A stretch of 64,000 nt of DNA from the NCBI RefSeq assembly GCF_002278925.1, contig NZ_NCJH01000007.1, positions 336,891 through 400,890 of the forward strand. Reading direction: 5' to 3'. Position numbers and translations under genes: made by a program. Below, piece by piece: positions 4,190 through 52,038 of the stretch. This stretch comes from Polaromonas sp. 39-63-25 (GTDB lineage: Bacteria; Pseudomonadota; Gammaproteobacteria; Burkholderiales; Burkholderiaceae_C). The first letter of the stretch is position 1. Each line of letters begins with the position of its first letter. The notes under the pieces were generated by a model. That model did not search any database. It saw nothing but the letters and a program-made list of their open reading frames with translations, and was not told the DNA's origin.

Positions 4190-4220
4190 TTTTGCTGACT
4201 CCTGCTGTGTGGTTGGCGGG

Positions 4221-4376
4221 CATGGATTACGGATCGAGTTCGCAATGACAAGTTTACGGCGTGCATCACACCGGCTACCCCTCCCGGCGTCATCCCGGGC
4301 TTGACCCGGGGTCCATGCAGCAAGAACCACCGCCGCCAGTGTGCACGCATGGATTGCGGATCAAGTCCGCAATGAC
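4221..4376. repeat. Cluster of three GTCAT...TTGATCC...CCATG elements
   Basis: Three related imperfect palindromes of about 29 bases occur at 4221-4250, 4289-4317 and 4348-4376. The outer two run CATGGATT...GCAATGAC; the middle one is inverted (GTCATCCCGGGCTTGACCC...CATG). These resemble the dispersed intergenic elements of many alpha- and betaproteobacteria. They fill most of the 313-base gap between the rhodanese gene and the acyl-CoA dehydrogenase. Confidence 0.6.
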
Positions 4377-4410
4377 AAACCAACACGCCGGCACCCCGGG
4401 AAGCTAAAAC

Positions 4411-4503
4411 CAAGCAGGGGCCGCGGGACCGGCTTTGCCGGACCGCAGGCGCAGCGGCCCCCTCGGGGGCAGGGAGTTACACGCAGTGAACGACCGTGGG
4501 GGC
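4411..4503. repeat. GGCCCCCTCGGGGGC repeat, copy 1
   Basis: A GC-rich element of about 93 bases: 'aagcaggggccgcggg', a hairpin CCGGCTTTGCCGG, then 'cggccccctcgggggcaggg' and a right end 'cgaccgtgggggct'. Copies recur at 32718, 35823 and, diverged, at 38645. Here its right edge touches the stop codon of the minus-strand acyl-CoA dehydrogenase, so it would be the 3' untranslated end of that transcript. Confidence 0.7.
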
Positions 4504-5630
4504 TAAAGTGCCCTTTGGATGATGATTTTCTGCACGTCAGACGTGCCTTCGTAGATCTGGCAGACACGCACGTCGCGGTAGATGCGCTCCACCGGGAAGT
4601 CGCTGACATAGCCGTAGCCGCCCAGGGTCTGGATGGCGGCGCTGCAGACCTGCTCGGCCATTTCGCTGGCAAAGAGTTTGGCCATGGCCGCTTCCTTCAG
4701 GCAGGGCAGGCCGGCGTCGCGCAGGCTGGCGGCGTGCCAGATCAGCTGGCGTGCGGCTTCCAGTTTCGTGGCGCAGTCGGCCAGGCGGAAACCGACCGCC
4801 TGGTGGTTGAAGATGGCGGTGCCGAAACTCTGGCGCTCCTTGGCGTACTGCACGGCAAATTCAAATGCGCTGCGCGCCATGCCCACGCTTTGCGCGGCAA
4901 TGCCGATGCGCCCGCCTTCGAGCGCGCCCAGCGCGATCTTGTAGCCTTCGCCCTCGGCGCCTATCAGGTTCTCGGCCGGGATGCGGCAATTGTCGAAGTT
5001 GATCTGCGCGGTGTCGCTGGAGTTCTGGCCCAGCTTGTCTTCCAGGCGCGCAACGACGTAGCCGGGTGCGCTGGTGGGCACCATGAAGGCGCTCATGCCC
5101 TTTTTGCCGGCGCCCTTGTCGGTGACCGCAATGACCACGGCCGCGTGGCCGTTCTTGCCGCTGGTGATGAACTGCTTGACGCCGTTGATCACGTACTCGT
5201 CACCCTCTTTCACCGCGGTGGTGCGCAATGACGAGGCGTCGCTGCCCACATGCGGCTCGGTCAGGCAGAACACGCCCAGCATCTGCCCCTGCGCCAGCGG
5301 TGTGAGCCACTGCTTTTTCTGCGCGGCATTGCCGTAACGCATCAGGATGGCGTTGACCGGGCAGTTGGTCACTGAAATCGCCGTGCTGGTGCCGCCATCG
5401 CCGGCGGCGATTTCCTCGATCACCAGCGCAAGCGTCAGGTAGTCGAGGTTGGCGCCGCCAAACTCTTCGGGCACGCAGATGCCGTAAGCACCCAGCGCCG
5501 CCAGGCCCTGGTGCGCCTCGACCGGAAAGTGGTGTGCCTTGTCCCAGGCCGCGGCGTGCGGCCAGAGTTCGGTCTGGGTGAAGTCGCGCACCGCGTCGCG
5601 GATCATTTCCTGGTCTTGCGTGAGCAGCAT
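4503..5630 (-). CDS. Acyl-CoA dehydrogenase
   Basis: 375 residues, normal length for the family, with the N-terminal helical, beta and C-terminal helical domains. Signatures present are 'CLTEPHVGSDASSL' (FAD/substrate loop), 'QSFGTAIFNHQAVGFRLAD' and 'QTLGGYGYVSDFPVERIYRD'. The glutamate in 'IYEGTSDVQ' is the usual catalytic base of short-chain enzymes. It oxidises an acyl-CoA at C2-C3, passing electrons to ETF. Last gene of the block led by the liu genes, 8 bases after the SDR gene. Chain-length preference is not determinable. Confidence 0.92.
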   Translation of the reverse strand: MLLTQDQEMIRDAVRDFTQTELWPHAAAWDKAHHFPVEAHQGLAALGAYGICVPEEFGGANLDYLTLALVIEEIAAGDGGTSTAISVTNCPVNAILMRYGNAAQKKQWLTPLAQGQMLGVFCLTEPHVGSDASSLRTTAVKEGDEYVINGVKQFITSGKNGHAAVVIAVTDKGAGKKGMSAFMVPTSAPGYVVARLEDKLGQNSSDTAQINFDNCRIPAENLIGAEGEGYKIALGALEGGRIGIAAQSVGMARSAFEFAVQYAKERQSFGTAIFNHQAVGFRLADCATKLEAARQLIWHAASLRDAGLPCLKEAAMAKLFASEMAEQVCSAAIQTLGGYGYVSDFPVERIYRDVRVCQIYEGTSDVQKIIIQRAL

Positions 5631-5638
5631 GAGAGGTC

Positions 5639-6304
5639 CTACCAGGCCAACGCCTGGCCGTCGTGGTTGATGAAAGTGCCATTGTGTTCCGCGCGCAGGC
5701 TGGCTACGGTGGTGCGCATATCGGAAACGCTTTGCGTGACATCCAGATCGGCGCCAGCGCCACCCATGTCGGTCTTCACCCAGCCGGGGTGCATCGCAAC
5801 GCAGATGGCTTTGCCCTGCAAGCCAAACGACATGTCCTTGACGACGGAGTTGACGGCGGACTTGGAGGCGCGGTACAGCCAGCTGTTGCCATTGGTGCGC
5901 AGCCCTATCGAGCCCATCCGGGATGACAGGACCACCAGCCGGGCGTCAGGCGCCAACACTTCCGTCAGTTGCGGCAGCACGCGCATAGGCGCCAGCACAT
6001 TGGTGCGCATCACCTGATCGAACACATCGGCAGCCGGTGGGTCGCCCGCATTGCCGCCCGCCAGCACACCGGCGACATACAGCGCGACGTCGATTTTTTC
6101 GCCATCGAGTAACCAGGCCAGACCGCTGACGCTGGATACGTCGTCCACCTCCAGCTTGACCGCCTGCGCGCCCAGCGCCTTAAGGCGCTCCAGCCCCGCT
6201 GCGTCGCGCGCGGTGGCGATCACGCGCGCGCCGGCGCTCCGGTACTGGCGCACAAACTCCAGCCCGATGCCGCGCGAGGCGCCGATGACGAGTACCGTGC
6301 TCAT
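5639..6304 (-). CDS. Short-chain dehydrogenase/reductase
   Basis: 221 residues with a Rossmann fold. The cofactor motif is 'VIGASRGIGLEFV' at the N-terminus, the 'YVAGVLAG' stretch replaces the common NNAG, the catalytic Ser lies in 'VVLSSRMGS', and the pair is YRASK (YxxxK). 'HPGWVKTDMGG' completes the classical SDR pattern. It probably oxidises or reduces a hydroxyacyl or aldehyde substrate with NAD(P). Sits between thiolase and acyl-CoA dehydrogenase genes, suggesting an acyl-CoA pathway role by context. Confidence 0.88.
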   Translation of the reverse strand: MSTVLVIGASRGIGLEFVRQYRSAGARVIATARDAAGLERLKALGAQAVKLEVDDVSSVSGLAWLLDGEKIDVALYVAGVLAGGNAGDPPAADVFDQVMRTNVLAPMRVLPQLTEVLAPDARLVVLSSRMGSIGLRTNGNSWLYRASKSAVNSVVKDMSFGLQGKAICVAMHPGWVKTDMGGAGADLDVTQSVSDMRTTVASLRAEHNGTFINHDGQALAW

Positions 6305-39620: not shown

Positions 39621-39651
39621 CCTCCTACAAAATGAGGAGGTAAAATTTTGT
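39621..39651 (+). promoter_or_regulatory. SD-sequestering hairpin before the cyclase-TPR gene
   Basis: CCTCCT (39621-39626) pairs with AGGAGG (39635-39640), and ACAAAAT (39627-39633) with ATTTTGT (39645-39651), so two stems compete for the same bases. AGGAGG is a perfect Shine-Dalgarno sequence but lies 24 bases from the ATG at 39665. A TTG 7 bases after it opens a six-codon frame whose TGA overlaps that ATG. This could be a coupled leader; unproven. Confidence 0.45.
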
Positions 39652-39664
39652 TACACCGTCTACG

Positions 39665-41458
39665 ATGAGGCTCCCATTGATTGAACTCCCTGCTGCCATG
39701 ACAAGAAACACGAAAGTGTTGCTGGTCATGGACGTGGTGGAGTCGGTCAGGATCATGGAGCAGGACCAGGATGGCTTTGTACGGCGGTGGCAACAACTCG
39801 TGGAAGAAGCGGAGCAGAACGTGCTGCCGCAGCATGGCGGGCGCATTGTCAAAAGCCTGGGTGACGGCCTGATGCTGGAATTTGCCAACGCCCAAAGTTG
39901 CGTTAAAGCCGCCTTCGCCCTGCACAGTTTCACGCGGCAGACCAATAACGGCTTGCGGCCCGAGCACCAGATGCACCTGCGCATGGGCGGCCACCTCGCA
40001 AGCTTCGTCACCGACCAGCACGACATCTACGGCACCGACGTCAACCTGACTTCGCGCGTGAGCACGCTGGCGGGTCCGGGGGAAACCGTGGTGACGGCCG
40101 ACATGCGGGATCAACTCGCGCCGCTGCTGGACGCAGACGTCGAAGACCTCGGCGAGTGCCACCTCAAACACGTCAAGGAGCCGGTGCGTGCCTACCGCGT
40201 CGGCCCGCCCGGTGATGCACCCATCGTCCCGCCGGGCAACGCGGTCGAGCTGAACCTGCGGCCCACGATTGCGGTGATCCCGTTTGCGATGCGCAGCAAC
40301 GAGCCCGGCCATGAACTGCTCGGTGAAGCATTGGCTGACGAGGTGATCGCGGCGCTGTCGCGGACCTCGGAATTGCATGTGATTTCGCGGTTGTCGACCA
40401 CGGTGTTTCGCGAGCGGCAGGAGGCTGTCGAAGATATTCGGACGCATCTGGGAGCCAGTTACATTCTCTCTGGGACCTGCCGCAGCATGGGCGCCCAATT
40501 GGCGCTGTTTGTCGAGTTAATCGATGCAAAGACCGGCCACGTGGCGTGGGCCGACAACCTGAAAGGCCAGGTACACGGACTGTTTGGTGCAGACGACGCA
40601 CTGATCGCTCGCCTCATCTCTGCAATAAGCACTGCGGTTATGTCTCAAGAATTACAGCGGGCGCGCAGCCATGCATTGCCGACACTTGAAGGCTACACCT
40701 TGCTTCTGGGCGCGGTATCGCTTATGCATCGCAATTCGTTCAGCGACTTCGACCGGGCACGGCAGATGCTTGAACACCTGATTGAACGCAGCCGCCGGCA
40801 CCCGGTCACCTACGCATGGCTGGCAAAATGGCATGTTCTCAAAGTGCAGCAGGGATGGACGCAAAATCCGGCACAGGAAACTCAGCTCGCGCAGCGCTGC
40901 ATCCAGCAGGCACTGGAAAATGATCCTGGCTGCGCTTTGGCCTGGACAGTCGACGGCTTTATCCACACCAACCTGTTGCGCCAACTGGACGCCGCAGACC
41001 ACCGCTACGGCCAGGCCTTATCGCTGAATCCGAACGACTCGCTTGCATGGTTGTTGAAGGGCATGCTGCGAGCATTTGCTGGCGAGGGCGCCCCTGCCAT
41101 GGAGAGCGTTACGCGTGCAACATCGCTGTCCCCGCTGGATCCTCTGCGCTATTTCTATGATTCATTAACCGCGTCGGCTTGCATTTCCAATGGCCAATAC
41201 GAAGAGTCGATTCGGAGCGCCAAGCGATCACTGCAGCTGAACATGATGCACACGTCGACCTATCGGGCGCTCGCGATGGCCCAGGCTCTTACGGGCAGAC
41301 TGGCGGACGCGAAACAAACCGTCAACCGCCTTCTCGATCTGGAACCAACTTTCACTGTCGCAAAGTTTTCGCAACGCTATCCGGGCAAAGACATCGCGCC
41401 GGACTACGCCGCAAAGCTGGCCGATGCCTTGCTCATGGCAGGTGCCCCCGCGCACTAA
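39665..41458 (+). CDS. Class III nucleotide cyclase with TolB-like and TPR regions
   Basis: 597 residues. The cyclase domain (about 15-195) keeps the key residues: metal Asp in 'LLVMDVVESV', Lys and second Asp in 'IVKSLGDGLMLEF', and the Asn/Arg pair in 'YGTDVNLTSRVS'. It should make cAMP (or cGMP). A TolB-like/FlgO-like domain ('PTIAVIPFAMRSNEP', about 210-330) and TPR-like helices follow. It has no transmembrane segment, so it is cytoplasmic. Start 39665 or Met12 (39698) are both possible. First gene of the operon with the GGY-repeat enzyme, 39 bases upstream. Confidence 0.85.
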   Translation: MRLPLIELPAAMTRNTKVLLVMDVVESVRIMEQDQDGFVRRWQQLVEEAEQNVLPQHGGRIVKSLGDGLMLEFANAQSCVKAAFALHSFTRQTNNGLRPEHQMHLRMGGHLASFVTDQHDIYGTDVNLTSRVSTLAGPGETVVTADMRDQLAPLLDADVEDLGECHLKHVKEPVRAYRVGPPGDAPIVPPGNAVELNLRPTIAVIPFAMRSNEPGHELLGEALADEVIAALSRTSELHVISRLSTTVFRERQEAVEDIRTHLGASYILSGTCRSMGAQLALFVELIDAKTGHVAWADNLKGQVHGLFGADDALIARLISAISTAVMSQELQRARSHALPTLEGYTLLLGAVSLMHRNSFSDFDRARQMLEHLIERSRRHPVTYAWLAKWHVLKVQQGWTQNPAQETQLAQRCIQQALENDPGCALAWTVDGFIHTNLLRQLDAADHRYGQALSLNPNDSLAWLLKGMLRAFAGEGAPAMESVTRATSLSPLDPLRYFYDSLTASACISNGQYEESIRSAKRSLQLNMMHTSTYRALAMAQALTGRLADAKQTVNRLLDLEPTFTVAKFSQRYPGKDIAPDYAAKLADALLMAGAPAH

Positions 41459-41497
41459 ATTCAAGATTTATCTAACCCAACAATCAGGAGGGGCACT

Positions 41498-42622
41498 ATG
41501 TCTATTATGGGTGGCTACGGTGGTTATGGCGGCTATGGCGGCTACGGTGGTTATGGCGGGTACGGAGGCTATGGCGGGTACGGAGGCTACGGTGGTTATG
41601 GCGGTCCCGCTCCGGAAGCCGGCCCCTTGCTCGCGGAAGCAATGACCAAAAGCCGGGGTGCCCTTGTGGGACCTTTTCAAGGTGCGACCGTACCCTTTAC
41701 CCTGCCGGTTCCCTTGGACAAACCAGACCGGCTGGCGGAGTGGAGTGTTGTACCGCGCTTGCAAGCGTGTGAACTGGAGTTTCTCTCCGGCCTGTACTTT
41801 GATGTCAACCAGTCACGTGATGCGATGACGGTTGGTTTTGTTGATCTCAACAAAAAATCTCTCAAGAGAGTGCAGTTGGCTCGACTCGTCCGGCCAACGG
41901 CATCCATATTCCGCCAGCAAGTCGATCTGGTGGCAAATTACGCAGAACTTCGCGAGGACAGGGGTAGCGAAGTCTTGGCCCAAACCTCACCTTCGCATGC
42001 GCCTTTTTGGGGCTCCATCGTCGGTCTTCAGGATCACCGCCATAAGTGGACACAGGAGCTGATCACTCTTGCGTTGATGTTGGTGGTCGACGTGGAGATG
42101 CGGTTCAAACACGCCTTCGCATGTCCCCGCCCAATGGCATTGTCACCTCAGATTCAACCAATGATTCCGACTCCCGGGCACGGAAGCTGGCCCAGCGGCC
42201 ATTCGACCGAGGCTTTTGCGGTTGTCACAGTGTTGGAGGCCCTGATCAACAGCGCCAACGGAACGGGGGCCAAATATAACGAACAGTTGCAGAGACAAGC
42301 AGCACGCATTGCGGTGAATCGCACGGTCGCCGGTGTGCACTATCCCGTCGACAGCGCGGTCGGACGAATGCTTGGTACCGCACTGGCAGACTTTTTTGTT
42401 GCTCGCTGCACAGGCAAGATCAAGCTTCACGAACGCGGATTCAACGGCCCCAGGTTTCACGGCCCCAAAGACCAGGTGCTGGACTTCGATCCCCGCGTGT
42501 CCATGATCGACAACAAGAGCGGCTATTACGAGTACGGGTCAACGGCATCGGCCATTGCCGCCTCACCGCTGCTCGAATTCATGTGGACCAAAGCCGCCAA
42601 AGAGTGGCAGCCGCTCAAGTAA
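41498..42622 (+). CDS. PAP2/vanadium-haloperoxidase-fold enzyme with (Gly-Gly-Tyr)10 N-terminus
   Basis: 374 residues. After MSIM come ten GGY triplets and GGP, then a helical domain. The PAP2/VHPO signature is complete: K-X6-RP in 'FKHAFACPRPMAL', 'PSGHSTEAF', and R-X5-H-X3-D in 'NRTVAGVHYPVDSAVG'. Members are acid phosphatases or, with vanadate, haloperoxidases; I cannot tell which. No signal peptide or clear membrane segment is seen, unusual for this family. AGGAGG precedes ATG 41498. A protease gene starts 7 bases after its stop, so they are coupled. Confidence 0.88.
   Translation: MSIMGGYGGYGGYGGYGGYGGYGGYGGYGGYGGYGGPAPEAGPLLAEAMTKSRGALVGPFQGATVPFTLPVPLDKPDRLAEWSVVPRLQACELEFLSGLYFDVNQSRDAMTVGFVDLNKKSLKRVQLARLVRPTASIFRQQVDLVANYAELREDRGSEVLAQTSPSHAPFWGSIVGLQDHRHKWTQELITLALMLVVDVEMRFKHAFACPRPMALSPQIQPMIPTPGHGSWPSGHSTEAFAVVTVLEALINSANGTGAKYNEQLQRQAARIAVNRTVAGVHYPVDSAVGRMLGTALADFFVARCTGKIKLHERGFNGPRFHGPKDQVLDFDPRVSMIDNKSGYYEYGSTASAIAASPLLEFMWTKAAKEWQPLK
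41510..41599 (+). repeat. Ten tandem 9-base Gly-Gly-Tyr codon triplets
   Basis: Units such as GGTGGCTAC, GGCGGCTAT, GGCGGGTAC and GGAGGCTAT repeat in frame. Glycine uses GGT, GGC, GGA and GGG and tyrosine uses TAC and TAT, so the protein pattern is uniform while the DNA varies. That suggests selection on the peptide rather than a recent slippage. Confidence 0.9.
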
Positions 42623-42628
42623 GCCGCC

Positions 42629-44599
42629 ATGAGCTGGACCAAACTGCCCAAGGGCGAGTTCACGGGCATCGATTGGGCCAAGCCCAGTGCCACCAACGGT
42701 TTTGACCCTTACCTGGTATGGGCCGAGGCTGACAACTTTTCGGGCTACGGCAACAAGCGGCCAAAGTGGTTGCCGGTTGCCATCGAACTCAAGTCGGGTA
42801 CGACGGTGCAACAGCTTATTGCTGCCGCGTCGCCCAAATGGCTGCATGTGCCGCCCGCTTACACCAGCCGCGCTGCGCCCAAGGGCTTGCGCTTTTGCAC
42901 GGCGCGCGTCAGGCCGGCGTTTTTCAAACAGCTGCAGCCGGGCGGCAGTTTGCATGCGCTGGTGCTGCGGCTTGAGTTGGGCTTGCCTGCGGCGGAGTAT
43001 GCCGACGACTCGGCGGTGAATCCGCCGGCAAACCCGCCCGTGCATTCGAGCGGCCCAGCCTGGCAGGCCGAGACTCAGGCCGAAGGTCTGCTGTCCGGCA
43101 ACGTCCTGGCGCTGATCGACGACAGCCTGGCGCTGGCTCATGCCAATTTTCTTCATCAGGGCAAGGCGCGCACCCGCTACTTCTGGCGGCAGGACGCCCA
43201 AGGCAAGGGCCGCACACCGCAAAGCATGGGCTATGGCCACGAGTTGACCGCCGCCGACATCAATGCCGCCATGCAGGCCAACACCTACAACGGTTTGGTG
43301 GACGAAAGTGCCGTCTACGTTGCGCTGGGGCTGTCCACCCTGGGCAGAAAAATGCCCAGGCGCGAGCACTTCTTTCATGCGCTGGATACGTCCGTCAGTC
43401 ACGGCACCCATGTCATGGATCTGGCGGCCGGTCCGCGCACGCTGCTGGCGCAAGTTGCCAATTTGCCGCCCACGTTTGACGCACCGCCCAGCTGGGCGCT
43501 GGCCGATGACGATGCCAGCCGGGCGGCCTTGATTGCCGTGCAACTGGACTATGACACGGTGCGCGACACCTCGGGCGGCTCAATGAACGTGCATGTGCTC
43601 GACGGGTTGATGTATGTCCTGTCGCGCTGCGCGGACGACGCCAAGGTGACGGCCAACATCAGCTTCGGCACGCTGGCCGGCCCGCATGACGGGACATCGC
43701 TGCTGGAAGCTGCCATGGATGAGCTGATTGGCTTGCTGCAGGGGCGTCTGCAGATCGCACTGGCTGCCGGCAACAGCTACCAGCTGCGCACGCACGCCAA
43801 TGCAACGCTATTAAAAAAAGAGCGAGCTGCGCTTCATTGGCGGGCGCTACCCGACGATTCGACCCAAAGTTTTGTGGAGTTATGGGTTGAGGAAGACCGC
43901 GACGGTCTGGAGATCACCATCACCCCGCCGGGGCGCGCGGCCTTGCCCCCGCTGAAGTTTGGCGAGTCGAGAATGTGGACGGGCGGCGGCAAGCAACCGT
44001 TGTGCGCGCTGATATACCCAAAGACAGTCGCTACCGGCCGACGCGGCACTTGCGCCCTGCTCGCGGTCGCGCCCACGTTCAGTTTTGACGACAAGACGGC
44101 GACCGCACCCAGCGGGGTGTGGCAAATCACGCTGACCAATACCGGCAAGAAGGCGGTCACCGTGGACGCTTATGTGGAGCGGGACGACGTGGTCATCGGC
44201 ACCCGCGGTGGCGCCCGACAGTCACACTTCGAGGACGCGTGGTATGACACCAGCGGGAACCCGGACTCCTTCGTGGACCATCCCGACAACCCAAGCCTGA
44301 TCCGGCGCAGCGGAAGCTTCAACAGCATCGCCACAGGCAGCAAGACCGTGTCGGTAGGCGGTACGCGGATCACCGGGCCGCGCTGGGCCCACTATTCCCC
44401 GCAGAAACCTGACCCCGATGCAGGGCGGGTTCAGCGCCCGGGGGTAACCAGGATTCCCGATGCGCAAGCGTTCAGCGACGAGAACCCGGCAACGCTGGGC
44501 GTGAATGCGGCCGGAACGCGCAGTGGCGCGGCGGTACGCCTGATGGGCACCAGTGATGCGTCACCCCAGGAAGCCAGGCGGATTCTGAACGGCATGTAG
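42629..44599 (+). CDS. Subtilisin-like (S8) serine protease
   Basis: 656 residues. The catalytic set is visible: Asp in 'VLALIDDSLALAH' (about 170), His in 'SVSHGTHVMDLAAG' (about 257), oxyanion Asn in 'IALAAGNSYQ' (about 380) and Ser in 'RLMGTSDASPQEA' (about 640). A long insertion between Asn and Ser includes a beta-rich segment ('ELWVEEDRDGLEITITP'). No signal peptide or prodomain is obvious, so it may act inside the cell or be exported by another route. Possible substrates include its operon partner. A repeat fragment lies at 43804. Confidence 0.85.
   Translation: MSWTKLPKGEFTGIDWAKPSATNGFDPYLVWAEADNFSGYGNKRPKWLPVAIELKSGTTVQQLIAAASPKWLHVPPAYTSRAAPKGLRFCTARVRPAFFKQLQPGGSLHALVLRLELGLPAAEYADDSAVNPPANPPVHSSGPAWQAETQAEGLLSGNVLALIDDSLALAHANFLHQGKARTRYFWRQDAQGKGRTPQSMGYGHELTAADINAAMQANTYNGLVDESAVYVALGLSTLGRKMPRREHFFHALDTSVSHGTHVMDLAAGPRTLLAQVANLPPTFDAPPSWALADDDASRAALIAVQLDYDTVRDTSGGSMNVHVLDGLMYVLSRCADDAKVTANISFGTLAGPHDGTSLLEAAMDELIGLLQGRLQIALAAGNSYQLRTHANATLLKKERAALHWRALPDDSTQSFVELWVEEDRDGLEITITPPGRAALPPLKFGESRMWTGGGKQPLCALIYPKTVATGRRGTCALLAVAPTFSFDDKTATAPSGVWQITLTNTGKKAVTVDAYVERDDVVIGTRGGARQSHFEDAWYDTSGNPDSFVDHPDNPSLIRRSGSFNSIATGSKTVSVGGTRITGPRWAHYSPQKPDPDAGRVQRPGVTRIPDAQAFSDENPATLGVNAAGTRSGAAVRLMGTSDASPQEARRILNGM
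43804..43850 (+). repeat. ATAGC-type repeat fragment inside the S8 protease gene
   Basis: 'acgctattaaaaaaagagcg' then AGCTGCGCTTC and GGCGGGCGC, resembling the first half of the dispersed family. It encodes the stretch LLKKERAALHWRAL after the oxyanion Asn. Confidence 0.4.
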
Positions 44600-44874
44600 G
44601 CTTGGCAGGAGATGCAGCGAAACCGGGTCGGTGTGAATCACGGGCCTGTGAAGGATCCGCAAGCGGACGGGTACTTTCGGCAAGGCCGCAGCTGTTGACA
44701 ACAACGCAACACTTTGCACCGTGGCGTCGCTCGCTGATGGCCTAAAGCTCCTGCCCCCGGTTCACCCTCTTTTCACGGGAGAGAGTTGGCCCTACACTCA
44801 GCGTGGATTTACAGTACGTTGCAATTTTTACGCCGAACCAGCAATTTCATCAACCGTAACCGCAGGAGAGATTT
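44600..44874. other. 275-base intergenic region before the Lys-tail gene
   Basis: No convincing gene. A short TCCGC-AA-GCGGA hairpin (44656-44667) and a TTGACA at 44695-44700 without a good -10 are seen. AGGAG lies 8-12 bases before ATG 44875. A promoter for the 44875-46082 pair is plausible but not identified. Confidence 0.4.
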
Positions 44875-45402
44875 ATGGGCTATTTCATGAAAGAGCATGA
44901 CATCCACGTTGGAAGTCTGCTTGACCAATTGAATGTACGTTTCGGACCAACGCCTGACAAGAAAACGCATTTTGGTGGCATCGACGAAATGGTGGCACTG
45001 CAAAAAGAGTTCAAGATTTTCAAAAAGGGCCGCTCGTTCAAGAGCAGCGTGGCAGTCCTCAATATCGGTGCGTCCAATGCCGAGGCCAAGAACCGCATGC
45101 ACGACTATTTCACCAATCTCAGCAAGCATGACTCGAATGTCGCTGGCCAGAACGGCGACGTGGCCATTGTCAACGCCATGGCGCGCAACCTTGCTTCAAA
45201 AAGCCCGCTGCCGGTCTATTTCACATTTCATGACATGCGGGCAGAAAAGGGCAACACACGTGTGCTGATCAAGGAGAAGGACCGGCCGGTCGCCTATTTC
45301 AACCAGGATTACCTGACCATCTCCCTGCCCACCATGGCGCTCAAGGCAGCAAAACCAACAGCCAAACCTGCGGCAAAAGCGGCCAAGAAAACGGCCAAGT
45401 GA
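44875..45402 (+). CDS. Unknown protein with histone-like Lys/Ala C-terminal tail
   Basis: 175 residues. A globular part of about 155 residues ('HVGSLLDQLNVRFGPTPDKK', 'VYFTFHDMRAEKGNTRVLI') is followed by a tail of AAKPTAKPAAKAAKK type like histone H1 or bacterial HU-like tails, which often bind nucleic acid. I do not recognise the globular part. ATG 44875 has a good AGGAG. Its stop TGA shares one base with the methyltransferase ATG (TGATG), so they are coupled. Confidence 0.8.
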   Translation: MGYFMKEHDIHVGSLLDQLNVRFGPTPDKKTHFGGIDEMVALQKEFKIFKKGRSFKSSVAVLNIGASNAEAKNRMHDYFTNLSKHDSNVAGQNGDVAIVNAMARNLASKSPLPVYFTFHDMRAEKGNTRVLIKEKDRPVAYFNQDYLTISLPTMALKAAKPTAKPAAKAAKKTAK

Positions 45403-46082
45403 TGAAAGCGGGGGCGGGCACCATCGCCATCACCAGGGCGTCCTCCCCCGATCCGCGGCTTGTCCAGGTGCACTCGGGCATTGAGCGTTATTACTCACAA
45501 AAAGTTCTCGCACATGGCGCGACTGCCCTCGGGGTGGACTGGACTTGCCAGCCAACCCAGGAACTTCGCTTTGTGCAACTCATCAAGTTGTGCGACTTCC
45601 GCCAGCCGTTCTCGCTAAACGATGTGGGCTGCGGTTATGGCGCGCTGCTGGCCTTTCTGGCCAAACGGCATCGGGGCGCAAAGGTGGACTACCTCGGCAC
45701 CGACCTCTCTCAGGCCATGATCGACCAGGCCAAACCGTCCCCGCGCCCCTCCATGCGCTCTCAGTTTGTGGTGACCGGTGACATTCCCCGCGTGGCCGAC
45801 TACTCGGTCGCCAGCGGCATTTTTAATGTGAAGCTGAACCAGCCCACGGTCCGCTGGACGCTTTTCATCCAGCAGACGCTGGCCGGGATGCATGCCGCAA
45901 GCCGTCTTGGTTTTGCAGTCAACTTCCTGGCGCCTCCTGGGCCGGACATGCAGGCCATCCCAGAGCTCTACCGTGTGTCACCGGATGTGTGGGCAAGCCA
46001 CTGCGAGCGGCAGTTCGGAGCAAAAGTGGAGCTGATCGAAGGCTACGGCATGCGCGAATTCACGCTGCTTGTCCGACGCTGA
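45402..46082 (+). CDS. SAM-dependent methyltransferase
   Basis: 226 residues, class I Rossmann fold. SAM motif I is 'LNDVGCGYGALLAFLA' and the acidic residue of motif II is in 'DYLGTDLSQAMIDQA'. The usual NPPY-type motif of DNA methylases is absent ('GIFNVKLNQP' instead), so a small molecule or protein is more likely to be methylated. Coupled to the upstream Lys-tail gene, which might be its substrate. The last 23 bases overlap the convergent AAA-cyclase gene. Confidence 0.82.
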   Translation: MKAGAGTIAITRASSPDPRLVQVHSGIERYYSQKVLAHGATALGVDWTCQPTQELRFVQLIKLCDFRQPFSLNDVGCGYGALLAFLAKRHRGAKVDYLGTDLSQAMIDQAKPSPRPSMRSQFVVTGDIPRVADYSVASGIFNVKLNQPTVRWTLFIQQTLAGMHAASRLGFAVNFLAPPGPDMQAIPELYRVSPDVWASHCERQFGAKVELIEGYGMREFTLLVRR

Positions 46083-49000
46083 CCCCAGTGTTTTCGGGGG
46101 GCTGATGGATCAGCATGGCCAGACGGGCCCGTTCGCGCAGCAAGGTCGACTCATAAATCGAGGCACCGGTCAGCTGCACCAGCGCCTCGGCCTCCGCAAA
46201 CAGGGCCTGCGCATCGGCCACCCGCGCCAGCCCGTGGGTATCCAGCGTTGCCGATGCCAGGGTGATCAGGGCGCGACACTCCGGCAGCCGCGTACTGCGC
46301 TGGCGCGAAATGGCGATCGCCTCACTGGCAGCGGCCAGGGCTTGCTCAAAACTCCCCAAGCCCCGATAACACTCGGCGAGGCTGGCCAGGATTTCGGTTT
46401 CAAACTCCATCGCAACCTGGTCACTCCTGACAAGTGCCAATGCCTCCGAATAGGTACGTGCCGCAGTGTCAAAGTCGCCACCAATGCTTGCCACCGTAGC
46501 GCGACAACTCAACGCAAAAACCCGCAGGTAAGGACTTTCGTATTTTGCAGCGATCTCGGCGACATAAGCGTAATGTGCCTCTGCCAGCGCGGCATCGTGG
46601 CGACACCAAGCCAGTTCTATATAGCCGAAGCGGGCGAACTGCAGGATCACCGGGTCATTTGATGATTGCCCCATGTCCAGCAACTCCTTCAGGCACTGCT
46701 CGGCTTCATCCAGACGCCCCAGCCGCGTCAGCAACCGGCCCCGCATCCCCATGACCCAGTGTTCGATGCTGAAGCCAATCCATTCGCGGTCGAACCTGTC
46801 AATCTCCCCGATGTCACGAAGCGCGCTGCTGTTTGCCTCCAGGGCTTCGCCCAGCATGCCGGCCCAGGCATAGGCCTGACTCAATGCGGCATTGATCATC
46901 GCAGCGCGCCCCGGGTCGGCACCAGGCGCCATCAGTGATTGCGCTTTCTGAAGACGTTCAACATAACCGTCCGCAGGGCCTCCGCTGGCCTGGAGCATTC
47001 TGCCTTCAGCCATCACCAGCAATTGAATCAGTCTGCCGTCCACCTCACCGGCAAGTTCCATGGCTTCGTCGATAAAGGGCTGCACCTCCTGCAGGGTCAA
47101 CCCCTCGCGCCAGCCGAGCACGCAGATCTGGCCGCCGGCCCGAACACGCAGGTTGTCGGTTCTGGCAGACCGGGGTTGCTCCTGCAGGAGCGCCCGCACC
47201 TTGTGCCAATGCTTGATCGCCAGCGCCGAGTTGGTGGAGCCCACCCACTGCGCGGCACGTGCGGCATGGCTCGCAGCCTCGAGGAATTGCCCTGCCGACT
47301 CGTAGTGGTAGGCAATCAGGCCCGCATACTCATCGAGCTGATCGCGGTAATACACTTCCATCGCCACCGCCACCGCGCCGTGGAGCGGGCCGCGGCGCAC
47401 CTTGAGCTGCGCGCTGTAGGCCACTTCCTGGATCAGGGGGTGGCGAAAGGTGAAGCGGCGGCCACCCACGGCAGGCTGCGGCAGGATAAGTTCAGCGTGA
47501 CACAGGCCATCGAGCCCTTTTTCGATCACCTTGGCCAGCGGGCTGGCCATGTGTTCCAGCACGGCGAGCGGGATCTCCTTGCCGATGATGGCGCACATCT
47601 GCAGCAGGGTTTTTTCGGGCTCGCCCAGACGGTCAAGGCGGGCGCCAATCACAGCTTGCACGGTAGCGGGCAAGGCCCGCTCTATCGCCTCCAGCCCTCC
47701 GGCGCGAAGATCGGAGCCCTCCAGAAAATAGCCGCGGTCGACCAGCGAACGCACCAGCTCTTCTGCAAAAAAAGGATTGCCGCCGCTTCGCGCTGCCACC
47801 AGTTCACAGATGTCCTGGAGTTCGGCACGGGGCCCGATCAGCACCCTGACGAGATGCTCTGTTTCCCTGAGGCTCAATTGCCCGAGGTCGATTTTTTCGA
47901 AGTTTTCAAACTGGGCCCAAGGCAGGCGGTACGACGGCCGGAAATTGAGGACCACCATGGTCTGGGTGCCGGCGGCCGCCTCAACCAGTGTCGCAACGAA
48001 CTCTTCGCTGGCCTCGTCCAGCCAGTGGAGGTCTTCGATGAGAATCACCGACGTCGTGGCCGCATCATGCTTGACCAGCTCGCGCACCACATTGAGCAAC
48101 CTGGTGTGGCGCGCCTTGGGACTGAGCGCGGACGGCGCGCTGCCGGCCTGCGCCACCCCGAGAAATTCGTACAGCAAGGCCAGGTCGGCTTCCGCCGGGG
48201 AGCCGAGCTCGGCCATGCGCTCGACAATCCGGCTTCTGGCGGCGGCGGCATCGTCGGCAGGCAGAATGCGGAAAAAGAAGGTTCTGAGAAGGCTCAACCC
48301 CGGCTGCAGGGGCGTTGCGTGGCCATAAGGCTGTGCACGCACCTCAAAAACGGGAACCTGCCTGGCCCGGCACCACTGGACGAACTCGTGGCACAGCCGG
48401 CTCTTGCCCGCACCGGGTTCACCCGAGATGCCCACCACCCGGGCCTGCCCTAGCTCGGTGACGAGCAGGGCCTGCTTGAGAAGATCACTTTCCCGGTCCC
48501 GACCAAGAAAGGGTGTCAGGCTGGCCGGATGAAAATGCTGGTCCGACGAGGCCATCCTGAACCCCGTCAAGGCATAGATCGCGGATTGCCCTGAGATCCC
48601 CTTCAGGACATGCTGCCCCATGGGCTGCACCTCACAGAGAGTGCGAACCAGCGCATAACAGCTTTCGGTCAGGCAAATACCGCCGGGATCGGCGAGCCCC
48701 ACAACCCGGCTCGCGAGATGGATGGTGAGCCCGTGGGCTCCCCCTCCCTTGCCGTCGGCGTTCTGTGGATCCGACGCCACCTGCCCTGAATGCAAGCCGA
48801 CCCGAATGCGCAAGCCCTGGCCCTCCGGGGCGAAGGCCCGCTGCATGTCGAGCGCGGCTTCGCAGGCCAGCAAGGCGTGACCTTCCAGCGCCCTGGGCGC
48901 GCCAAAGATGGCCATGACACCGTCGCCCAGTGTTCGTATGACTGTTCCGTCAAACTTCTCGATCGAGGCGCACATCCGCGCCAAGGCAGGGCCCAGGCGA

Positions 49001-49290
49001 TCCATCGCCTGCTCGGCATCCAGGTCGGCGATCTGCTCCGTGGAGCTCACGATATCGGCGAAAAGGACGGTGGCCTGTTTGAGTTCGCCCCATGTCACGC
49101 CCGGCGGGGCGGCTGCAACACCCGGGGCGGCGCCGGCGTGGGGAGTGCCGCACGCACCACAAAAGCGCGCCGAAGGGCTGGACTCCTGGCCGCAATGGCG
49201 GCAAACCTGCGGCAAGCCCGCCCCACACCCCTCACAGAACCGGTTTCCGTCGGGGTTAACAGTCAGGCATGAGCCACAGCGCAACGACAT
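46060..49290 (-). CDS. Zinc-ribbon / class III cyclase / AAA ATPase / TPR regulator
   Basis: 1076 residues. Two N-terminal zinc ribbons (CGSC...CEGC, CRHC...CGAC) precede a class III cyclase domain (about 70-240) with metal Asp in 'VLFADIVSSTEQ' and 'IRTLGDGVMAIFG'; the usual catalytic Asn is replaced by His in 'LTIHLASRVVG'. An AAA/STAND-type ATPase follows with P-loop 'SGEPGAGKSRL' and Walker B 'VILIEDLHWLDEA', then about ten TPR-like helix pairs. I chose ATG 49290 just before the ribbons. It faces the plus-strand operon and overlaps its last gene. Confidence 0.87.
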   Translation of the reverse strand: MSLRCGSCLTVNPDGNRFCEGCGAGLPQVCRHCGQESSPSARFCGACGTPHAGAAPGVAAAPPGVTWGELKQATVLFADIVSSTEQIADLDAEQAMDRLGPALARMCASIEKFDGTVIRTLGDGVMAIFGAPRALEGHALLACEAALDMQRAFAPEGQGLRIRVGLHSGQVASDPQNADGKGGGAHGLTIHLASRVVGLADPGGICLTESCYALVRTLCEVQPMGQHVLKGISGQSAIYALTGFRMASSDQHFHPASLTPFLGRDRESDLLKQALLVTELGQARVVGISGEPGAGKSRLCHEFVQWCRARQVPVFEVRAQPYGHATPLQPGLSLLRTFFFRILPADDAAAARSRIVERMAELGSPAEADLALLYEFLGVAQAGSAPSALSPKARHTRLLNVVRELVKHDAATTSVILIEDLHWLDEASEEFVATLVEAAAGTQTMVVLNFRPSYRLPWAQFENFEKIDLGQLSLRETEHLVRVLIGPRAELQDICELVAARSGGNPFFAEELVRSLVDRGYFLEGSDLRAGGLEAIERALPATVQAVIGARLDRLGEPEKTLLQMCAIIGKEIPLAVLEHMASPLAKVIEKGLDGLCHAELILPQPAVGGRRFTFRHPLIQEVAYSAQLKVRRGPLHGAVAVAMEVYYRDQLDEYAGLIAYHYESAGQFLEAASHAARAAQWVGSTNSALAIKHWHKVRALLQEQPRSARTDNLRVRAGGQICVLGWREGLTLQEVQPFIDEAMELAGEVDGRLIQLLVMAEGRMLQASGGPADGYVERLQKAQSLMAPGADPGRAAMINAALSQAYAWAGMLGEALEANSSALRDIGEIDRFDREWIGFSIEHWVMGMRGRLLTRLGRLDEAEQCLKELLDMGQSSNDPVILQFARFGYIELAWCRHDAALAEAHYAYVAEIAAKYESPYLRVFALSCRATVASIGGDFDTAARTYSEALALVRSDQVAMEFETEILASLAECYRGLGSFEQALAAASEAIAISRQRSTRLPECRALITLASATLDTHGLARVADAQALFAEAEALVQLTGASIYESTLLRERARLAMLIHQPPENTGVSVGQAA

Positions 49291-49378
49291 TTCTTTAAGA
49301 ACTCTCAACAACACACAACGGGACCACTACGAATCGTTACACGGTACCCCTCACAAAGCAAGGCATTTGCACCCGGGT

Positions 49379-50506
49379 TCAGGTGATCACCTTGACAGCC
49401 TGCCAGGCCGACATGACGGCCTTGCATTCTTTTGACTTAACGCCAAAGCGCTGGGAGGCCACGTCTGTGGTTGCTCGCGCTGCATCCTGAAAACTGGCCT
49501 TGGGCTTGAGTTTAGCGAAGGCCTCGTACCAGATCGGCCCGGCTTTTTCCCAGGAGTACCCGCCTATTTTTCGGGCCGCCAGGTAAAAGGCGTGATTGGG
49601 AATGCCGGAGCCGTCATGCACGTCAGCGCCATCGACATACTGCTCCATGTTCTTGAACTGCTCGTCTTCGTACCACGTCAGCTGGCGGTTGCCTGGGTCC
49701 TTGAGAGAGCGGATGGCCCGGCCGTGCTGCGGCGCAAGCATGTGCTCACCGAGCAACCAGTTGGCTTGCGCGACGTCCTGCCCCGCGTGCCACTGTTTGA
49801 CCATGCTGCCGAAAACATCGGAAAAAGACTCATTGAGCGCGCCGCTCTGCCCCTGGAGCGCATGTGTCTGCTCCTTGAATTCGCGATCCTTCGGAGCCAC
49901 CCGAACAACACCCAGCCCGCCAGCGATCATGTGCTGCGTGACGCCGTGCGTGAGTTCATGGGCAATGATGTCCAGTGCAGCGGTAAATCCACTCACGTTC
50001 TGGTCGCCATCTCCGTAGACCATCCGGTCGCCGGTCCACATCGCATTGCCGAAATTTTTTCCGAAATGCACCGCAGACTCGACCCGCATGCTGCGGTTGT
50101 CGATCGAATGCCGGCCAAAAACCTTCAGGTAAAAATCAAGCGTGATGCCGGCATTGTCATAGGCCTGGTTGGCGGCGTGATCCTTGACCGGCTTGTCGCC
50201 CTCGTCCCGTACGGGCTTGCCTGGAAGCACGGTGTCCGTGCCTGCATCAAAAATACTGCGCCGCCAGGACGGGGCGGAATGAAGCGCCTGCGGCAGTGAC
50301 GCTGCCGGCGCCTGGGGAGCCCATGCGCTGCGCTGCGTACGAAGGCGCGAGGCACTTTCCATGTGGCCATGGATGACATGGCGATCAGCCTCCCCGGCTT
50401 TGTCGGCGAGCTTCCTGAGCAATTTGGAAGGAACTGCAAAACATGCGCAGCGATAGGCGGGGCCCACGGCCGTGACCTCTTGAGCACACAAGCGGTCAAC
50501 AGCCAT
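49379..50506 (-). CDS. Protealysin-like M4 metallopeptidase
   Basis: 375 residues. The zinc motif is 'DIIAHELTHGVTQH' with the third ligand in 'GALNESFSDVFGS' and the catalytic His in 'SGIPNHAFYLAA', so the thermolysin site is complete. The N-terminal stretch 'YRCACFAVPSKLLRKLAD' resembles the short protealysin-type propeptide. No signal peptide is evident. Start ATG 50506 is preferred; GTG 50551 is an alternative, since the frame is open back into the Crp gene. No small partner (emfourin-like) inhibitor gene is visible next to it. Confidence 0.85.
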   Translation of the reverse strand: MAVDRLCAQEVTAVGPAYRCACFAVPSKLLRKLADKAGEADRHVIHGHMESASRLRTQRSAWAPQAPAASLPQALHSAPSWRRSIFDAGTDTVLPGKPVRDEGDKPVKDHAANQAYDNAGITLDFYLKVFGRHSIDNRSMRVESAVHFGKNFGNAMWTGDRMVYGDGDQNVSGFTAALDIIAHELTHGVTQHMIAGGLGVVRVAPKDREFKEQTHALQGQSGALNESFSDVFGSMVKQWHAGQDVAQANWLLGEHMLAPQHGRAIRSLKDPGNRQLTWYEDEQFKNMEQYVDGADVHDGSGIPNHAFYLAARKIGGYSWEKAGPIWYEAFAKLKPKASFQDAARATTDVASQRFGVKSKECKAVMSAWQAVKVIT

Positions 50507-50561
50507 TTGCGCTATTGGCAGCGACTCGTCGCCATACGGGAAATAGGCCACCCGAACCGGC

Positions 50562-51221
50562 CTACCAGCGGCTGGGCAGTTTCTTGAGCAACGTGATGCG
50601 CCGGATGCCCAGTTCGATGTAGCCCCCTTTTTCGAGGTCTTTGAGCAGCCGGCTGACCATCTCGCGCGAGGCGCCCACGCGATTGGCGATGTCCTGATGG
50701 GTGATGGACTCCAGCGTGGCGCTGCCGCCGGGTGCTTCGCCGGTGTCTTCCCGACGCTCTTCCAGCAAGGCAACCAGTCGCCCGTATACGTCGAGCAGCG
50801 CCATGTTCCGCGCCGTCTCTGTCGCGGAACGGGCCCGGCGTATCACCTGAACCACGAGATTGATGGCAAATTCAGGCTCTTCCACCAGGTGTTCACTGAC
50901 ATCTGCCCGGCTCAGCACCGCGCAAGTGCAGGGCTCCAGCGTCATCACCGAGGCAGATCGGGGCCCGCCGTCGAGCGACATCTCACCGAAATAGTCGCCC
51001 GCATTGACCGTCCCGTAAGTGATTTCGCGTCCGCTTTCGTCCATGGCGAATACCTTGACACTTCCCTTGAGCAGGACAAACAGGCTGTCGCCGGATTCAC
51101 CCTCATTGATCAACACCGCATTTTTTCGGTAGGTCCGCAACACGCCGCGGCGAGCCAGCGAGCGCAACTCGGGAACCAGTGGCGTAAAAAGGTCTTCGTT
51201 TGAAGGTATTGACGTGCTCAT
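50562..51221 (-). CDS. Crp/Fnr-family regulator with intact cyclic-nucleotide pocket
   Basis: 219 residues. The cNMP-binding domain (about 20-135) has the phosphate-binding cassette 'YFGEMSLDGGPRSASV' with the conserved Glu and Arg, so cAMP or cGMP binding is likely. The Crp HTH is 'HQDIANRVGASREMVSRLL', whose SREMVSR recognition helix matches the residues with which E. coli CRP reads TGTGA (Arg, Glu, Arg). No iron-sulfur Cys cluster, so not an FNR. ATG 51221 was chosen to fit the family start. Confidence 0.9.
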   Translation of the reverse strand: MSTSIPSNEDLFTPLVPELRSLARRGVLRTYRKNAVLINEGESGDSLFVLLKGSVKVFAMDESGREITYGTVNAGDYFGEMSLDGGPRSASVMTLEPCTCAVLSRADVSEHLVEEPEFAINLVVQVIRRARSATETARNMALLDVYGRLVALLEERREDTGEAPGGSATLESITHQDIANRVGASREMVSRLLKDLEKGGYIELGIRRITLLKKLPSRW

Positions 51222-51285: not shown

Positions 51286-51942
51286 TCAGTGAATTTGGGC
51301 CAGGTGCAAAGGCGCCACCGGTGGCAAAACGGCGACACGGTTCACCAGCTCGCGCACACCGCTGGACCCGGTTTTTGCGCAGAGGCTACGCACATGGCTG
51401 CGTACCGTGGAAACAGCCACCTTCAGCTGGACGGCAATTTCCGGCGTGCTCAGGCCCCGGCACAAGATGGCGAGCACCTGCTCTTCAGTCTGGGTCAGCC
51501 CGTAACTGCGCGCAAAAAAACCGAACATGCCGGATTCGCAGACTTCGGCACGCGCAAAAAGCAGGGCGATGCGGGCATCCCAGGCATCGGCGTCGGGTTT
51601 GAGGGGCACAACGGCCAGCGTCAGGGTCAGTCCGGCGCCAGACACATTGATCAGGCTGCGCTTGCCTGCCACCGCCTTGCCCAAGGCATTCTGGAGCGTT
51701 TTGCAGTCTGCCGGCGTCGTGGCATGGACTTCCCCGCCCACCCTGTTGAGCACCCGATGACGGTTCAGCTCGGTGCGGGCCGCACGATTGGCGTGGATGA
51801 TCTGGCCGTGCTCACCCACCACAATGACGCCGTGGCCCAGTACGTCAACCAGCAGCGACAGCACGTCCGGACCTGCGTGCGGGCGGGTCGCGTCCTGTGG
51901 CAGGGAAGCATCCAGGAATCCAGCGGTCAACAGGGTGTTCAT
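51286..51942 (-). CDS. PAS-LuxR type transcriptional regulator
   Basis: 218 residues: a PAS-like domain (about 28-130, 'GHGVIVVGEHGQIIHANRAA') and a C-terminal LuxR HTH (about 147-205, 'YGLTQTEEQVLAILCRGLS', 'VAVSTVRSHVRSLCAKTG'). No receiver domain, so it likely senses a small molecule or a protein partner. A perfect CRP-type box lies about 80 bases before its start, linking it to cyclic nucleotide signalling. Confidence 0.88.
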   Translation of the reverse strand: MNTLLTAGFLDASLPQDATRPHAGPDVLSLLVDVLGHGVIVVGEHGQIIHANRAARTELNRHRVLNRVGGEVHATTPADCKTLQNALGKAVAGKRSLINVSGAGLTLTLAVVPLKPDADAWDARIALLFARAEVCESGMFGFFARSYGLTQTEEQVLAILCRGLSTPEIAVQLKVAVSTVRSHVRSLCAKTGSSGVRELVNRVAVLPPVAPLHLAQIH

Positions 51943-52020: not shown

Positions 52021-52038
52021 TTGTGAACAAAGTCACAA
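52021..52038. promoter_or_regulatory. Perfect CRP-type box TTGTGA-N6-TCACAA
   Basis: TTGTGA, ACAAAG, TCACAA: both half-sites match the E. coli CRP consensus core and are exact inverted repeats. It lies in the 272-base gap between the hybrid kinase stop and the LuxR gene (start 51942), on the promoter side of the latter. The neighbouring Crp-family protein has a recognition helix suited to this sequence. Confidence 0.75.

Follow-up and report, generated by a model that had tools for sequence, protein, structure and literature searches.

Shared inheritance of a repeat tail on a PAP2-type enzyme and the TPR end of its neighbouring cyclase points to a possible private lock-and-key signal within the cell

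Why should a cyclase, a phosphatase- or haloperoxidase-like enzyme and a subtilase be encoded side by side in several proteobacterial groups? This question is raised by a 64,000-nucleotide stretch of Polaromonas sp. 39-63-25 (contig NZ_NCJH01000007.1, positions 336,891 to 400,890), referred to here as the window, in which five open reading frames (ORFs) follow one another on the plus strand and are numbered genes 1 to 5 (Table 1). An earlier note on this DNA described inter-gene distances of 39, 6 and 275 bases followed by a one-base overlap, and the ORF coordinates bear this out, the stop codon of gene 4 sharing one base with the ATG of gene 5 (TGATG). The same note proposed that a nucleotide cyclase gates a processing module, in which a Tyr-rich substrate domain, a protease and a methyltransferase act on shared targets. 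The reading favoured here, drawn from sequence comparison and given a probability of about one half, is that genes 1 to 3 form a cytosolic signalling unit, in which the TPR sensor of gene 1 would recognize a tandem array carried by the N-terminus of gene 2, receptor and array forming matched allelic pairs. A private lock-and-key signal within the cell is suggested by the apparent joint inheritance of the gene-2 tail and the TPR end of gene 1.

The conservation of the operon was followed in two samples. In the family sample of 399 genomes, gene 2 was matched at E 0.001 in 132 (many of these being weak PAP2 hits), and loci with their flanks were obtained for 60 of the 64 best places. The species sample, with one genome per species, contained at least 580 confirmed gene-2 relatives, of which the best 80 were kept. 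Seven genomes in common and one further duplicate leave 132 distinct loci. Gene 1 before and gene 3 after gene 2, on the same strand, were found in 53 of the 60 family loci (gene 1 only in four, neither in three) and in 72 of the best 80 of the at least 580 relatives, six others being cut by a contig edge and two having no recognized gene 1 in place. Overall, order and strand are kept in 125/140 loci, or 117/132 after merging duplicates, with six of the misses due to contig-edge cuts. The suspicion that this might be a chance neighbourhood, with homologues never adjacent, is, therefore, dispelled for genes 1 to 3, which are a module conserved beyond chance in several proteobacterial groups. 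Presence is patchy at the genus level (4/6 genomes), gene 2 is matched at E 1e-20 in 22 of 398 genomes of the wider phylum, and 35 records are plasmid-borne copies.

Genes 4 and 5 are a separate unit and not part of this module. They were not found in most loci taken around gene 2; within these loci, they occur in Polaromonas- and Ramlibacter-like ones only, always accompanied by a gene of the type that lies convergent and downstream of gene 5 in the window. The whole set stands upstream of gene 1 in one genome (L039/L104) and in L161. These three genes constitute a second conserved set in near relatives. The five-gene operon, conceived as one system, is thus reduced to its first three genes, the other two travelling separately. 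As for the cyclase gating a processing module, a signalling protein that probably acts with genes 2 and 3 can be retained, while the Tyr-rich substrate and the membership of the methyltransferase are given up.

What, then, varies within such a conserved module? An N-terminal tandem array is present in 137 of 157 deduplicated gene-2 loci (two of the 137 consisting of masked bases), with a period of three residues in 86, four in 39 and other values in 12, and a median size of nine copies and 30 residues. Up to rotation, 69 different readable units were counted, for example, GGY, GGL, GGW, GGV, SGGV, SAGV, AGY, TGT, QGS, NSF and ASLWPR, a few calls being doubtful (e.g., two-residue units). Gly occurs in 123 of the 135 readable units, any aromatic residue in 31 and Tyr in 13. 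The window itself carries ten error-free copies of GGY. A Tyr-rich substrate domain is, therefore, not a property of the family, and Tyr as a substrate for halogenation or cross-linking is ruled out by the same counts. A partner bearing the same repeat was also sought in the window's own genome, without (GGY)3 turning up anywhere else.

The arrays are maintained at the protein level. Adjacent units differ by 2352 synonymous versus 203 non-synonymous base differences, a count that is biased, as the arrays were picked by protein likeness. Codons are synonymously varied inside arrays, which indicates that the protein repeat itself is kept; in L144, for example, all 13 of 13 units are different DNA words. 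The arrays of L142, L149 and L127 consist of near-identical DNA units. In the 105 diverse arrays, identical neighbours are somewhat commoner than after shuffling (40 vs. 23), so some local duplication is ongoing, and array Gly codons are flatter than those of the cores (GGA and GGT making up 48% vs. 23%). The probable course is that arrays start out as fresh repeats, which selection on the protein then preserves. The metagenome contigs of L142, L149 and L127 start within an array of identical DNA units or immediately ahead of it, and such arrays are, therefore, probably under-sampled in assemblies.

Units also turn over on enzymes that are otherwise very similar: gene-2 cores that are 93.7-94.7% identical carry GGV, GGI and GGF, with GGY at 91-93%, and SAGV and SGGY are found on cores that are 95.7% identical. 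The two-copy genomes compared carry different units, namely SGA and GGA in Bradyrhizobium sp. Ec3.3 and, in three further genomes, GGF and NAE, TAM and GNQ, and SHS and TSA.

The C-terminal TPR segment of gene 1 follows the unit. Among pairs of loci with 75-85% gene-2 identity (12 with the same unit and 79 with different units), its median identity is 81.5% in same-unit versus 56.8% in different-unit pairs. The corresponding medians are 90.3 and 81.3 for the N-terminal TPR part, 80.7 and 79.8 for the cyclase domain, 77.5 and 76.9 for TolB, and 76.6 and 76.2 for gene 3. Above 85% gene-2 identity (14 same, 22 different), the C-terminal TPR medians are 96.0 versus 58.0. Over all 127 pairs with at least 75% identity of the gene-2 core, 26 of them same-unit, residues 497-597 of gene 1 differ by 43-54% in different-unit and by 11-18% in same-unit pairs, and the remaining gene 1 by 11-30% versus 6-19%; genes 2 and 3 are little separated by unit class, the gene-2 side being affected weakly. 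In pairs above 75%, the divergence step begins at residue 505. For example, in L145 (GGF) and L134 (GGY), gene-1 residues 316-495 match at 98-100%, after which identity drops to 71 and 50%. Regression on the other regions, in two sets of pairs (429 pairs, 116 same-unit; 185 pairs, 49 same-unit), gives residual differences of +12.7 and +18.0 points for the C-terminal TPR, matched in none of 5000 label permutations in either set. The residuals of the N-terminal TPR were reached in 841 and 865, and those of TolB in 479 and 701, of 5000 permutations, so that neither region stands out. For gene 3, the residual is opposite in sign, i.e., without positive co-variation with the unit.

A number of observations weigh against recognition of the tail by the receptor, or narrow it. 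The label permutation ignores phylogeny, the other regions serving as internal controls, and, in the class above 85%, same-unit pairs are closer in every region, the C-terminal TPR being the most so. An array is absent, by the criterion used, from 20 of the 157 gene-2 relatives, many of them distant. Of the 116 same-unit pairs, 34 have a C-terminal TPR that is less than 70% identical. Most of these are GGA pairs whose overall identity is lower, but L133/L145 (GGF, 59), L119/L143 and L119/L147 (SGGV, 56 and 54, respectively) and the pairs of L125 with further SGGA loci (63-67) are also among them, with N-terminal TPR parts 79-91% identical in these last cases. Conversely, six different-unit pairs reach at least 72%, and distant same-unit pairs share little (34.5 vs. 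31.1, from 10 and 2226 pairs, GGA being excluded). In the window's own clade (17 loci), 107 different-unit pairs give 41.6 for the C-terminal TPR, 48.1 for the N-terminal TPR and 69.5 for gene 2, with only three same-unit pairs available; the whole TPR has diverged there. The sharp step is thus seen mainly in loci of the Hydrogenophaga type, and the co-varying block may be longer in the window's clade. Two simple forms of recognition were rejected: a residue-by-residue code, as the BLOSUM similarity of the swapped residue is unrelated to TPR divergence (Spearman 0.05), and variation confined to the groove, as variable positions also lie outside groove positions. Finally, fourfold sites of different-unit pairs are also more diverged at the TPR end than in the other segments (0.58-0.68 vs. 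0.33-0.57), which makes the block look like an old allelic lineage exchanged whole rather than the result of fast positive selection; block replacement with hitch-hiking, therefore, explains much of the co-variation.

Linkage without any contact between the proteins, the array DNA being a recombination hotspot alongside which the end of gene 1 is replaced, accordingly has to be taken seriously, and is nevertheless judged rather unlikely. It accommodates the raised fourfold divergence, the close neighbourhood of the array and the gene 1 end on the DNA, the fresh DNA repeats of L142, L149 and L127, and the same-unit pairs of apparently separate origin that have no TPR end in common. It does not predict, however, that the effect is asymmetric, extending over about 280 bases or more of gene 1 and only weakly to the gene-2 side, that divergence steps at one place in pairs above 75%, or that protein-level repeats persist after the DNA repeats are lost. 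Moreover, at fourfold divergences of 0.45-0.8, same-unit pairs retain 78.9% amino-acid identity (25 pairs, pooled 0.56) versus 55.7% for different-unit pairs (123 pairs, pooled 0.63), both pooled values being near saturation. A tandem array of identical copies next to a TPR protein also suits a multi-copy peptide precursor, cut by the subtilase into short peptides that TPR would sense, the signal being either pheromone-like or of a housekeeping kind. Nearly all loci that have gene 1 also have an S8-type gene after gene 2, and TPR receptors of short peptides are known (the RNPP family; for ComRS, see PMC8605241). This is considered improbable, as neither a signal peptide nor an exporter is visible by eye, the units are very short and mostly contain Gly, and gene 3 does not co-vary positively with the unit. 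Least probable is an abortive defence of the Pycsar/CBASS kind, in which the cyclase senses a phage, and the enzyme and the protease kill the cell. The combination of a cyclase with effector-like enzymes, the diversifying segment, the patchy presence and the plasmid copies are in its favour, but PADLOC models were not matched above noise (gene 1 only to PycC, at E 0.0067 and 13.9 bits, which does not make it a PycC-type cyclase; genes 2 and 3 to nothing). Phage records gave no match at E 1e-8 and viral contigs three partial ones (31-33%), neighbourhoods are shared between loci, and the adjoining CRP and LuxR genes point to gene regulation.

Returning to recognition of the tail by gene 1, the architecture of this protein would suit a receptor. 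Pfam assigns PF00211 (27.6 bits) and TPR, and the AlphaFold 2 model (mean predicted local distance difference test, pLDDT, 87.6) matches class III cyclases and consensus TPR folds. Class III cyclases use two Asp for metal binding, a Lys/Asp pair for the base, and Asn and Arg. The window has all six residues, as do 84 of the 91 sequences where all six align, which places gene 1 in this class; several are lost in Phaeobacter. The gene 1 of Phaeobacter plasmids carries a winged-helix annotation and contains PF00486, with D23, D67, N127 and R131 of a degenerate cyclase replaced and a TPR part that is 42% identical to that of the window (108/256). In ten Phaeobacter loci from three species, all with unit NSF in 5-7 copies, the C-terminal part of gene 1 is without any difference, with up to 14 differences upstream. 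In Paracoccus (L239), a gene of its own, written in the divergent direction, encodes the regulator. Gene 1 is, on these sequences, best read as a receptor with an exchangeable output.

A candidate for the next component is found nearby. Within 4 kb downstream of gene 3, a CRP-family gene occurs in 55 and a LuxR-type gene in 57 of 112 deduplicated loci with room, about half of the loci having the CRP gene immediately after gene 3 and pointing towards it. A cyclic-nucleotide motif is kept in 36 of 39 CRP proteins. The pair is not nearby in the Bradyrhizobium-type loci taken. This pair, the lineage-specific arrays and the matching TPR end had all escaped the earlier note. In L135 (Polaromonas sp. 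P2-4), gene 1 is interrupted by a stop codon and the CRP gene is in two pieces; this system may be decaying.

The earlier observation of intact catalytic motifs proved correct when key residues of genes 1, 2 and 3 were aligned with relatives. The PAP2/vanadium haloperoxidase motif is K-x6-RP, SGH and R-x5-H-x3-D. Gene 2 matches PF01569 (46.5 bits), and K171, R178, P179, G201, H202, R242, H248 and D252 are invariant in 44 sequences; the window has the Ser of SGH, which is not listed as invariant. The profile of gene 2 matches both acid phosphatases (E 4e-22) and bromoperoxidases. Gene 2 thus shares catalytic motifs and profile matches to solved members with the vanadium haloperoxidase/class A acid phosphatase superfamily, from which it differs by its N-terminal array, and its reaction may be of either kind. 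In the AlphaFold 2 model, residues 1-42 fall below pLDDT 50 in front of a confident helical core. Gene 3, as a single sequence, gives no Pfam S8 match at E 1, having diverged enough to be missed, whereas its profile matches solved Csp subtilases (E 1e-26), including the CspB type, with which it shares the catalytic motifs. His258, Ser642 and the oxyanion Asn382 are invariant, and Asp164 is present in at least 90%, of 33 sequences, which completes the S8 triad. A signal peptide is not visible by eye on either enzyme, as had been noted before, no predictor having been used, and a cytosolic location is presumed.

How could such a unit work? In gene 2, the enzyme would be preceded by a flexible N-terminal tail, some 30 residues long and built of identical units of mostly three or four residues. 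Because tail and TPR end are inherited together, physical binding between them is proposed: the C-terminal TPR repeats of gene 1 may read the tail, perhaps with several gene-1 molecules per tail. This contact would set the output of gene 1, which may be a cyclic nucleotide in most lineages, received by the neighbouring CRP-type protein in about half of the loci, and direct DNA binding in Phaeobacter. By trimming or destroying the tail or the complex, the subtilase may turn the signal off or on. As tail and TPR end pass on as one allelic block, alleles and paralogues would be insulated from each other. Somewhat more tentatively, repeat may read repeat in a natural code, matched alleles being long kept diverse as a private channel for each lineage or paralogue.

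Several known systems share parts of this design. RNPP receptors (Rap, PlcR, Rgg, ComR) similarly combine a TPR receptor, as found in gene 1, with an output domain that varies by member and a ligand that coevolves with its receptor. Their ligand is, however, a secreted and re-imported peptide, whereas the presumed ligand here is a tandem array on an enzyme, and the main output is a class III cyclase; no small secreted pro-peptide gene was seen by eye beside gene 1, the adjoining gene encoding the 374-residue enzyme. Pherotype loci, such as comQXPA and agr, have a polymorphic stretch that runs from the end of one gene into the beginning of its neighbour, between conserved flanks. The present loci are alike in this, but neither a secreted signal nor a histidine kinase was seen, and the presumed ligand is fused to a PAP2 enzyme. 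Pycsar and CBASS also place a cyclase gene beside effector-like genes, without the fused TolB-TPR sensor and nearby CRP-type gene found here, where no known effector was recognized. Designed repeat proteins bind tripeptide-repeat peptides by superhelical matching (PMC10115654). Here, too, a repeat protein is proposed to read a peptide made of identical short units, but the designed proteins are artificial, while the system here is natural and its one-to-one matching only putative. No publication on this gene set was found in the literature, as judged by titles and the beginnings of abstracts, with subscription journals mostly uncovered.

If the proposal holds, this would be a widespread bacterial signalling system, in which the main fixed property of a protein tail is its periodicity, and a change of receptor-ligand specificity could be watched between otherwise nearly identical species. 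Dozens of naturally matched repeat-peptide and repeat-protein pairs would become available as orthogonal binders for protein design. A role would also be offered for cyclase-TolB-TPR proteins, for which we know of no ligands.

Other array partners of gene-1 relatives were sought in 14 further regions. L228 contains a gene-2 relative with SSG in 12 copies; in L215, the gene next to the gene-1 relative resembles PAP2 by eye and has no array. In L219, a PAP2-motif gene (4214-5746) after the gene-1 relative has an imperfect N-terminal heptad repeat of the PNYAAY type.

Table 1. Coordinates of the genes and other features in the window
Feature	Position	Strand	Remarks
Inverted repeat CCTCCT-N8-AGGAGG, 5' of gene 1	39621..39640	.	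Possible operator
Gene 1: class III cyclase, TolB/FlgO-like domain, TPR solenoid	39665..41458	+	597 amino acids
Alternative start (ATG) of gene 1	39698
C-terminal TPR segment of gene 1 (residues 505-597)	41177..41455	+	Co-varies with the gene-2 array unit
Gene 2: PAP2/vanadium-haloperoxidase-like enzyme	41498..42622	+	374 amino acids; N-terminal array
GGY array	41510..41599	+	10 exact units, then GGP; synonymously varied codons
Gene 3: Csp-like S8 subtilase	42629..44599	+	656 amino acids; signal peptide not visible
Gene 4: Lys/Ala-tailed protein	44875..45402	+	Outside core module; no Pfam family
Gene 5: S-adenosylmethionine methyltransferase	45402..46082	+	Outside core module; methyltransferase profile 31 bits
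Zinc-ribbon/cyclase/AAA/TPR gene	46060-49314	-	Convergent, downstream of gene 5; 288 bits to TOMM kinase/cyclase model (cut-off 706)
ORF with HELTH metalloprotease motif (by eye)	49379-50773		After the 46060-49314 gene
CRP-family regulator	50562..51221	-	Cyclic-nucleotide-binding and helix-turn-helix domains in relatives; displaced from gene 3 in window
PAS/LuxR-type regulator	51286..51942	-	Paired with CRP gene
Perfect TGTGA-N6-TCACA palindrome	52022-52037		Upstream of LuxR-type gene

Regulatory elements around these genes were considered as well. Some form of the inverted repeat is present in 13 of 116 upstream regions (duplicates unmerged), chiefly in Polaromonas, and is not general. The palindrome is perfect in the window and L113, and few relatives share it. 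A CRP site 5' of the LuxR gene is not claimed, as it occurs with at most one mismatch in 4/69 loci versus 2/69 shuffled, and a single match in the window is not above chance (1.2 expected at this threshold). Promoter and terminator counts were no higher than in shuffled sequence. The search for RNA elements gave a single sub-threshold snoRNA match, which spans the junction between gene 2 and gene 3; nothing was matched in the 275-base gap.

The genes upstream of gene 1, which we take to be HPPD and phenylalanine hydroxylase from their sequences, precede the operon in many Polaromonas loci, and, among the matches listed, the nearest named relatives of gene 2 are from Polaromonas. The 4.8 Mb genome of the window contains 11 cyclase-domain matches, including three inside the window. 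In 22 loci, chiefly of the Hydrogenophaga type, a Lys/Ala-rich protein with KKAAPAKK repeats is encoded about 3 kb upstream (e.g., L119, 5363-5885).

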